A DNA stretch of 45,422 nucleotides from Chloroflexota bacterium (lineage in GTDB: Bacteria; Chloroflexota; Dormibacteria; CF-121): assembly GCA_005881175.1 (NCBI GenBank), contig VBEN01000014.1, forward strand, positions 1-45,422, in the 5' to 3' direction. This document shows positions 1,936 to 41,627 of the stretch, in pieces; positions within the stretch are counted from its first letter, which is position 1; every line of letters begins with the position of its first letter. Under the pieces are notes generated by a model. The model saw only the letters and a program-made list of their open reading frames with translations. It was not told the DNA's origin and did not search any database. A program made the position numbers and the translations under genes.

Positions 1936-3254
1936 TCCGTCGAGTCAGGCGCCTTCCTCGCCAGCTGCTCTTTCGCCCGCATCTCGCGCTTATGCTGTTC
2001 GGCAGCCTCTCGCTGATCTCCGGGTGGCTCTGGTTTGGGACCGGACTCTTTCTCGGGAACGGTTCGGGCCTGGCGGTGTGGGGACTCTCGTGCGCCGCGA
2101 CGGTGCTCGCAGCGCTGGCACTGCTCCGGCGGCGGCTGCAGCTGTTCGGTCTGGCAGCGCTCCTCCTGGCGACCGTAGTCGTGCCGACACTGGCGCTCAT
2201 GGCCCTGCGCTGGAAGACGGGCGCGCCCATCCTGATGCACGATGGCGCCTATCAAACCGAACAGGCGATGCGCCTGCTGCTTGGCGGGCTGGACCCCTAC
2301 GGCGTCGACTACACCACCACCAGCATGCGGCTCTGGCACTGGTACGTGAACACGCCGATCGATCCGAGCCTCTACCACTACGTCTATCCGCCGGCGGTCT
2401 TTCTCCTCCCCTTGCCCGTCTACGCGCTCGCGCAGTGGCTGGGAGCGCCGTTCGATATCCGGCTGGTCGAGCTGCTGGTCGAGGTAGTGACGGCGGTTGC
2501 GATTATCAAACTCCCCTGGCGATGGGAGTGGCGCTACCTGGTCCTGGCCGCGCTCTTTCTCGATCCCTTCTTCTACCTGGCCCAGGGCCGCAACGACATC
2601 CTCTTCCTTGCCCCGATCGTCCTCGCCGTGCTGGCCTGGGAGCGAGACCGTCCGTTGCTCGCATCCCTCGCATTCGGCGCGGCGGCGGCCTTCAAGCCGT
2701 TCGCGGTCTTCTTCCTCCCCCTCGTCGCCGTGCTGGTGTGGCGTCGTGCCCGCGCCGAGCAATGGTCAGCGGCCAGGTGGCTCACCGCCATGGCCGGCCT
2801 GGTCCTGCCCGGGCTGGTCACCATCGCCCCCTTCTTCCTGTGGAATCCGGGGGCCTACTGGGCGGACACCGTCTCGTTCGTCGCTGGAAGTGACGCGCAC
2901 CGCTATCCGATCCAGGGCTACGGTTTCTCGCAAGTCCTTCTCCTGCTGAAGATCGTTCCCAGCCCGGGCGCCTACTTTCCTTTCTCGATCCTGCAGGTCC
3001 TGGGGGCGCTTCCCGCCTTCGCCTTCGGCATCCGTCGCGTGGTTGCCCGGCCGACCCTTGCCAGGGCGCTCTGGTGGGCGACCGCGACACTGACGCTCTT
3101 TCTGTTCTTCAGCCGTTTCGTCAACGACAACTATCTCGCCGCCGTGCTCTTCCTCGCCGTCCTCGCCGGGGCCACCGGCCGGGGAGCCCGTGGATACGGG
3201 ATGGGCCATCAAGCCGATCGTGTTTTATCGACCGGGCCTGCCGCTGCGGCATAA
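1932..3254 (+). CDS. Multi-pass membrane protein, GT-C/GT87-like; paralogue of preceding gene
   Basis: GTGA overlap with upstream stop; DGAYQTEQAMRLLLGGLDPYGVDY and GRNDILFL parallel the upstream protein. Confidence 0.6.
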   Translation: MIRRVRRLPRQLLFRPHLALMLFGSLSLISGWLWFGTGLFLGNGSGLAVWGLSCAATVLAALALLRRRLQLFGLAALLLATVVVPTLALMALRWKTGAPILMHDGAYQTEQAMRLLLGGLDPYGVDYTTTSMRLWHWYVNTPIDPSLYHYVYPPAVFLLPLPVYALAQWLGAPFDIRLVELLVEVVTAVAIIKLPWRWEWRYLVLAALFLDPFFYLAQGRNDILFLAPIVLAVLAWERDRPLLASLAFGAAAAFKPFAVFFLPLVAVLVWRRARAEQWSAARWLTAMAGLVLPGLVTIAPFFLWNPGAYWADTVSFVAGSDAHRYPIQGYGFSQVLLLLKIVPSPGAYFPFSILQVLGALPAFAFGIRRVVARPTLARALWWATATLTLFLFFSRFVNDNYLAAVLFLAVLAGATGRGARGYGMGHQADRVLSTGPAAAA

Positions 3255-33725: not shown

Positions 33726-33731
33726 CTATGC

Positions 33732-33820
33732 AGCCCTAGCGGAGCGGAATGCGCTGAGAAGTCGGTTCGCCGGCTGACGCTGGAACCTGATCAGGTTGAC
33801 ACCTGCGGAGGGAACGGGCT
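33732..33820 (+). ncRNA. TPP riboswitch (THI element)
   Basis: CTGAGA, GGAACCTGATCAGGTTGACACCTGCGGAGGGAA; P1 AGCCC (33732-33736)/GGGCT (33816-33820). Confidence 0.92.
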
Positions 33821-33852
33821 CTCGAGCATTCCGCAGCAGCCGGGACACTGTT

Positions 33853-40094: not shown

Positions 40095-40397
40095 ATGAAC
40101 TTGAGGCCATTGGGAGACCGGGTCGTGATCAAGCCCGTCGAGCGGGAGGAGCGGACCAAGAGCGGCATCGTGCTGCCCGACACCGCCAAAGAGAAGCCCC
40201 AGGAGGGCATGGTCGAAGCCATCGGGAACGGCCGCTTCATCGAGGCGACCGGCAAGCGTGAGCCGCTCGACGTCAAGGTCGGCGACCGCGTCGTTTATGC
40301 GAAGTACGCCGGCAGCGAGATCAAGCTCGACGAGACCGAGTACCTGATCGTGTCCGAGAAGGATATCCTCGCCGTCGTCGCGAACGGCAAGAAATAA
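40095..40397 (+). CDS. groES: Co-chaperonin GroES
   Basis: [38 protein letters not shown]. Confidence 0.98.
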
Positions 40398-40416: not shown

Positions 40417-40445
40417 AAGCCAGCCTACGGGCTGGCTTTCTTTAT
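40417..40445. terminator. Rho-independent, probably bidirectional terminator between convergent groES and peroxiredoxin
   Basis: AAGCCAGCC-TACG-GGCTGGCTT then TTCTTTATTT; A/T tract also on the other side. Confidence 0.9.
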
Positions 40446-40970
40446 TTGCGGGGGAGGCTCGGGGTGCGGGGTTTTCGCCCTCGGGATCATCGGTAGGCCG
40501 AGCATGGCCTCGGTCATCGCCGCATATTGCTCCTGGCTGCGCCAGTCGTAGTGCGGGTTGCGCCAGCGGACATAGCCGCGATAGTCGATGAGGAACAGCG
40601 ATCGCTGCGCGACGCCGCGCTCCTCGTTGAGGACCCCATAGCGGCGGGCAACAGCCTTGTCCCAGTCGGCGAGGAGCGGGAAGGGCAGGTCGCCCAGGCT
40701 CTTCGCGTAGGCCTTGTGCGCCCAGATGTGATCGACGCTGATGGCGAGCACCTGGGTCTCCCCTTTGACGATCTGGTCATGATCACCTCGCAAGGAGGTG
40801 AGCTCATTGGTTCAACCCGGACTGAAGTCGAAGACATAGAAGCAGATGAGGACATGCTTGCTTCCGCGGAACGATGAGAGCGCAACCGGGTCGCCGTCGG
40901 GCGTTCCGGGCAGGCTGAAGTCTGGTGCCTGGTCACCAATCCCCGGCATGCTGGCCGCGGCACTCGGCAT
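40425..40970 (-). CDS. AhpE/AhpC-TSA-like peroxiredoxin with in-frame TGA (40812-40814) at the peroxidatic Cys position; candidate selenoprotein
   Basis: Same-frame translation MPSAAASMPGIGDQAPDFSLPGTPDGDPVALSSFRGSKHVLICFYVFDFSPG[TGA]TNELTSLRGDHDQIVKGETQVLAISVDHIWAHKAYAKSLGDLPFPLLADWDKAVARRYGVLNEERGVAQRSLFLIDYRG... Confidence 0.8.
40779..40807 (-). ncRNA. Candidate bacterial SECIS-like stem-loop downstream of UGA
   Basis: RNA 5'-AUGA-gc-UCACCUC-CUUGC-GAGGUGA-UCAU-3': 7-bp upper stem, 4-bp lower stem, loop begins 17 nt after UGA. Confidence 0.55.
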
Positions 40971-40988: not shown

Positions 40989-41627
40989 GTGATTTTCCGC
41001 GATCGGGTGGATGCCGGTGAACGGCTGGCGGTAGCACTCCAGCGCTACCGCGACGCAGCGGACACGATTGTCCTGGGCATCCCTCGCGGCGGCGTGGTGG
41101 TAGCCAAAGCCATCGCGGTCGAGCTGCATCTGCCGCTCTCGATCTGTCCGGTGCGCAAGCTCGGCGCGCCTGGCAACCCGGAGTTGGCGATCGGGGCCGT
41201 CGACGACGACGCCGTGCTCGTCTTCGACCGCAAGCTCAGCCGGCACATCGGCCTGAGCGAGAATGACATCGCTCGCGCCGCCACACGCCAGCGCGAAGAA
41301 CTGCGCGCCTGGCTGTCGGCCCTGGCGGCGGGAGAGCTGCCGCCACTCGCCGGACGGACGGTGATCCTGACGGACGATGGGGTCGCCACCGGATACACGG
41401 CGCAGGCCGGCGTCGAGACCGTGCGCCGGCGCGGCGGCCGTCGGGTGGTGCTGGCCGTGCCGGTCGCTCCACCCGACACGGCCGGATGGTTGGCTCCACA
41501 GGTCGACGAATTCATCTGCCTGGCCACGCCGGAGCCCTTCTATGCCGTCGGCAACTTCTTCGAGGAATGGCCACAGGTCACCGACGACGAGGTTCGAGCG
41601 TTGCTGCTGGCTGGTAACACGTTGTAG
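40989..41627 (+). CDS. Phosphoribosyltransferase-family protein
   Basis: TIVLGIPRGGVVVAKAIAVELHLPLSICPVRKLGAPGNPELAIGAV; VILTDDGVATGYT. Confidence 0.9.
   Translation: MIFRDRVDAGERLAVALQRYRDAADTIVLGIPRGGVVVAKAIAVELHLPLSICPVRKLGAPGNPELAIGAVDDDAVLVFDRKLSRHIGLSENDIARAATRQREELRAWLSALAAGELPPLAGRTVILTDDGVATGYTAQAGVETVRRRGGRRVVLAVPVAPPDTAGWLAPQVDEFICLATPEPFYAVGNFFEEWPQVTDDEVRALLLAGNTL

Follow-up and report, generated by a model that had tools for sequence, protein, structure and literature searches.

The window analyzed here, a 45,422-nucleotide stretch of a Chloroflexota genome (contig VBEN01000014.1, positions 1 to 45,422), carries on its minus strand a predicted selenocysteine (Sec) peroxiredoxin gene at 40425..40970. 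The frame running from 40970 to 40425 consists of 181 codons and a final TAG (40427-40425), and its sole internal TGA (40814-40812) corresponds to residue 53 of the predicted 181-aa, one-Sec product, within the context ..LICFYVFDFSPG[U]TNELTSLRGD... Translation with table 11 breaks this frame into the two minus-strand ORFs from which the initial annotation had started, one ending at 40812 and the other starting at 40793, both of which are present. The gene is flanked by groES (Cpn10; 40095..40397, plus strand), a convergent neighbor that lies beside the peroxiredoxin in all examined loci of the window's own family (denoted f1), and by a divergent gene with a phosphoribosyltransferase domain (40989..41627, plus strand), which starts 18 bp from the peroxiredoxin start and is kept in those f1 loci that are long enough to show it. 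A TPP riboswitch (58 bits) is found elsewhere in the window, at 33728-33831 on the plus strand. Those close relatives that have public names are Chloroflexi MAGs with scaffold names that include depths in cm, and we take them to come from soil cores.

When the two ORFs are joined they form, as previously proposed, a complete peroxiredoxin: the resulting product reaches 114 bits with the Pfam AhpC-TSA profile (PF00578; cut-off 26), with residues 11-136 matching profile positions 1-123 of 124, and 62 bits against the Redoxin profile. Comparison with solved structures using phmmer retrieved, among the best-scoring matches, the 2-Cys peroxiredoxin BAS1 (82 bits) and, behind it, AhpE of Mycobacterium tuberculosis (74 bits), a ranking by scores that does not single out AhpE. 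The UGA at 40812..40814 (minus strand) coincides with the peroxidatic Cys when the protein is aligned to solved peroxiredoxins, M. tuberculosis AhpE included, and based on this alignment and on its conservation we read it as Sec. The surrounding active site is also as the initial annotation described it. Ser50 (40821..40823, minus strand), at position -3 from the Sec, is the T/S of the active-site motif and is Ser or Thr in homologues; a Glu is found at +3; and Arg123 (40602..40604, minus strand), the presumed active-site Arg, is invariant. The catalytic Pro that occupies position -7 in Cys peroxiredoxins (PxxxT/SxxC) is missing, and its place is taken by Val46 (40833..40835, minus strand), with Val found there in all f1 orthologues examined and in all those examined of a second family of the same class (f3). 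The only further Cys in the protein, C43, is not conserved, in line with the suggestion of a one-Sec enzyme with no other Cys in its C-terminal part.

With Ser50, position 53 and Arg123 all retained and a conserved second Cys lacking, the protein is most likely a one-Sec peroxidase that is reset by an external reductant. The loss of the Pro, a residue to which shielding of the active-site Cys from solvent has been attributed (PMC3337327), as well as a conserved C-terminal extension that f1 proteins have of their own, could alternatively point to a Sec protein that abandoned peroxidase activity upon loss of the catalytic Pro and became a reductase, a thiol-transfer protein or a sensor. However, the Ser/Thr at -3 and Arg123 were retained and the protein has no UxxC or CxxU redox pair, and we consider such a change of function unlikely.

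To place the UGA in a broader context we assembled 116 homologues, drawn from the class relatives and from a survey of 399 genomes across the phylum; 11 UxxC redoxins, whose Sec lies three residues earlier, were excluded. The peroxidatic position is Sec in 59 of these homologues and Cys in 57. To explain this distribution the tree needs 10 Sec/Cys exchanges, of which well-supported branches force at least 4. The UGA/Cys alternation among orthologues that the initial annotation had suggested looking for is therefore seen across the phylum, on trees.

The genome to which the window belongs (an assembly of 2.88 Mb in 246 contigs, 89% complete) encodes selA (538 bits), selB (359 bits) and selD (395 bits), all above curated cut-offs, with selA and selB adjoining each other. 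The SelD gene itself has an in-frame TGA (..SHGAGUACKI..; G000:C49:69689-70618). The Sec machinery anticipated by the initial annotation was thus found as far as these three genes are concerned, but a complete tRNA-Sec gene (selC) was not found in this incomplete assembly, where the tRNA matches examined were tRNA-Ser, Cys, Leu, Gly and Phe genes; this counts against the Sec reading. A tRNA-Sec above the Rfam cut-off is present in 9 of 14 genomes of the same genus, including the nearest relative (G007), and its anticodon is TCA in all seven of the genes examined (7/7). The absence of selC from the window's own assembly is likely to reflect an assembly gap. In G007 the tRNA-Sec sits 39 bases from a contig end, and nothing in the window's assembly convincingly matches the 1 kb that precedes it. 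That assembly does contain two fragments (C122:3930-4039 and 3124-3172) that resemble the 3' part of the G007 tRNA-Sec with 94% identity, lack its 5' part and are not called as tRNAs. An integration event at selC may have left them behind; visual inspection of the ORFs near them revealed no integrase.

The residue inserted at a UGA is not nameable from sequence alone, and in principle the codon might be read as another amino acid, for example as Trp through code reassignment or a suppressor tRNA. Several observations render this very improbable: the UGA falls on the catalytic Cys in alignments, and homologues have either UGA or a Cys codon there; selA, selB and selD are in the genome and tRNA-Sec is in the genus; and among the AhpC-TSA matches above the cut-off in the window's own genome, a TGA occurs only in the window gene and in a thioredoxin-NHL gene with a CUINC motif, in both cases at a redox Cys.

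This thioredoxin-NHL gene (NHLRC2-like; G000:C63:938-2413) has its TGA at the first Cys of the CxxC motif (..FWTFCUINCMH..). Of the f1 matches extending over the N-terminal part, 10/10 contain one TGA, and the f2 homologues have no stop. Because a review of 119 selenoprotein families contains no NHL family, the gene may represent an undescribed selenoprotein family. The class also has UxxC redoxins of three other types that contain a TGA (L264-L274; FYRGDWUPYC, YE...UGAC and MREFGUMTC). In addition, a genome of the same genus encodes a second peroxiredoxin, a Sec paralogue with the motif FYVLDFTPGU and a strong consensus-type hairpin (L263; G003:C317:57-1052).

Within f1, the TGA is found at the identical codon in 17/17 genomes, from four genera, that have a contig covering this codon (16 full-length orthologues and one that is split over contigs). 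In f3, at 34-44% identity, the best match of each genome with a match contains a TGA, positioned at the peroxidatic codon wherever the alignment or codon was read. Such invariance in independently assembled relatives and in f3 orthologues indicates that the TGA is neither a chance event nor a sequencing error. Moreover, dN/dS is about 0.07 on either side of the TGA (0.066 upstream and 0.073 downstream; 13 orthologues, one genus), so that the downstream half, which the initial annotation had described as open and conserved, is under the same protein-level selection as the upstream half and shows no decay. A dead or split gene, in which a Cys codon mutated to TGA and left the downstream half as a remnant or as a separate short protein, would explain why table 11 yields two ORFs, but with a TGA at the matching codon in all covering orthologues, equally low dN/dS on its two sides, and an invariant Arg and conserved core in the downstream half, it is the least credible of the explanations we considered. 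Together with selA, selB and selD, these data support the original proposal that the UGA encodes Sec.

A SECIS-like hairpin, UCACCUC-CUUGC-GAGGUGA (40783..40801, minus strand), begins 10 nt downstream of the UGA. It has a 7-bp stem and a 5-nt loop located 17 nt after the UGA, and in this sequence the stem continues below with AUGA/UCAU pairing beyond a GC bulge. Fold energy relative to synonymous recoding is weakly negative (mean z of -0.9 in f1 and -0.45 in f3) and does not make the region after the TGA stand out, and the evidence for the hairpin therefore consists of synonymous constraint and compensatory change. Among orthologues, synonymous differences are fewest in the 12-codon window from +3 to +14 (0.067, as compared to about 0.42 elsewhere in the gene), and this window contains the hairpin.

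Hairpins occur at the corresponding place in three groups, namely f1, f3 and a neighboring Sec group. The f3 hairpin (UGACCG-AGUUC-CGGUCA, with the loop 16 nt after the UGA) differs in sequence from that of f1. In the neighboring group, represented by eight related Sec genes, the stem is 91% paired with compensatory change in 4/7 pairs, and the number of pairs changed on both sides was matched in 0/500 shuffles. The f3 stem is paired in 92% of cells, with compensatory change in 2/6 pairs and a covariation score reached by 0/500 shuffles, and the f1 stem is 95% paired, with compensatory change in 1/7 pairs and a score reached by 28/500 shuffles; in all of these the stem pairs were picked by looking at the sequences, which is somewhat in their favor, and slid controls were mostly much lower.

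The bacterial SECIS consensus is a coding-region hairpin just after the UGA, with a stem of 4-16 bp, a loop of 3-9 nt that lies 16-37 nt after the UGA, and a G within the first two loop positions (PMC13188914). The hairpin in the window agrees with this consensus in its position, stem, loop size and spacing, but not in its loop sequence, CUUGC, where neither of the first two bases is G; this counts against the Sec reading. The f3 hairpins fit: their spacing is 16, and G is found among the first two loop bases. When bSECIS criteria were applied strictly in a scan, f1 was not picked up, and Sec and Cys genes were separated only in part (16/59 vs 4/57 at E <= -7.5).

The Val at position -7 is the most unusual feature of the window's peroxiredoxin, the Pro found there in other peroxiredoxins being near-universal and generally regarded as essential. 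Across the 116 homologues in the phylum, Pro is found at this position in 54/57 Cys proteins as compared to 12/59 Sec proteins, in a set retrieved with a profile that was built from Val-type Sec proteins and may over-represent that type. A scan with a DNA pattern allowing TGA, TGC or TGT at the peroxidatic codon gave Val matches that all carry TGA (34/34). A four-state model of dependent evolution fits better than independence (LRT 25.7, p = 3.6e-5), a test that covers one phylum and one midpoint-rooted tree and uses a chi-square approximation with rates at bounds; dependence is still favored when f1 and f3 are cut to one member each (p = 9e-5) or removed (p = 1.5e-4). Selenocysteine thus seems to relax the need for the catalytic Pro. 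Since this Pro disappeared more than once, and nearly always in Sec enzymes, the interpretation with the best support is that the residue becomes dispensable in the presence of selenium. A broader scenario, in which Sec lifts the constraint on Pro, the Pro was replaced on repeated occasions (by Val, His, Leu, Tyr, Glu or Ser), and a VxxxS/TxxU class arose that has a variant SECIS loop in the window's clade, is one that we lean toward only slightly.

We also considered that Pro loss might be exclusive to Sec enzymes, and rejected this, as 3/57 Cys homologues have no Pro at -7. These three Cys peroxiredoxins (L226, L238 and L248, with Val, Phe and Thr at this position) could be former Sec enzymes that reverted to Cys.

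Taken together, our sequence analyses favor, with a probability of roughly 0.92, a one-Sec peroxiredoxin in which a hairpin drives the decoding of UGA as Sec. According to this model the hairpin would recruit SelB together with Sec-tRNA-Sec, and the UGA would be decoded as Sec; peroxide would then be reduced through the selenolate, yielding a selenenic acid, and, lacking a conserved second Cys, the enzyme would depend on an external thiol or a partner protein for its regeneration. The place of the catalytic Pro at -7 is taken by Val, and selenium is predicted to make this Pro dispensable.

Why selenium is used in some enzymes when sulfur works is a long-standing question. Here, Sec and Cys were exchanged several times within a single phylum, with an accompanying change at another active-site residue, providing a natural test case for whether the Pro protects or tunes the Cys enzyme in ways that the Sec enzyme does not need. 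On the practical side, gene calling with table 11 splits such Sec genes in uncultured Chloroflexi, and part of the SECIS elements of this lineage may lie outside the standard search model.

Peroxiredoxin-family selenoproteins are, as the initial annotation remarked, known in other bacteria: they had been described by 2005-2006 (PMC1088965, PMC1794560), including 43 Sargasso Sea Sec peroxiredoxin genes (PMC1088965), and a Sec-containing peroxiredoxin (PF00578, TxxU) is given as experimentally verified (PMC13188914). The window gene therefore represents a lineage-specific variant. We found no report of this peroxiredoxin family or of the Pro/Sec relation in the open-access literature, and as far as that literature shows, the lineage-wide VxxxS/TxxU family, the Pro loss tied to Sec and the non-consensus hairpin loop are new.

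The known Sec peroxiredoxins and the window protein have in common the AhpC/TSA profile, a peroxidatic Sec, the T/S at -3 and the conserved Arg. In the former, however, the PxxxTxxU motif is described as highly conserved (PMC13188914), whereas the window protein has Val at -7 and belongs to a soil Chloroflexi host; against the NCBIfam PrxU model (NF040737) it scores 79 bits, below the equivalog cut-off of 270. The Prx-SUH selenoprotein (NF045827) and the UxxC redoxins are Sec proteins of the same superfamily, but unlike the window protein they carry CxxU or UxxC motifs; the window protein scores 22 bits against the Prx-SUH model (cut-off 298), and UxxC redoxins are encoded by separate genes within the window's class. 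M. tuberculosis AhpE (1xvw and relatives) resembles the window protein in having a similar length and one catalytic chalcogen, and differs from it in that the window protein has Sec in place of Cys and Val in place of Pro.
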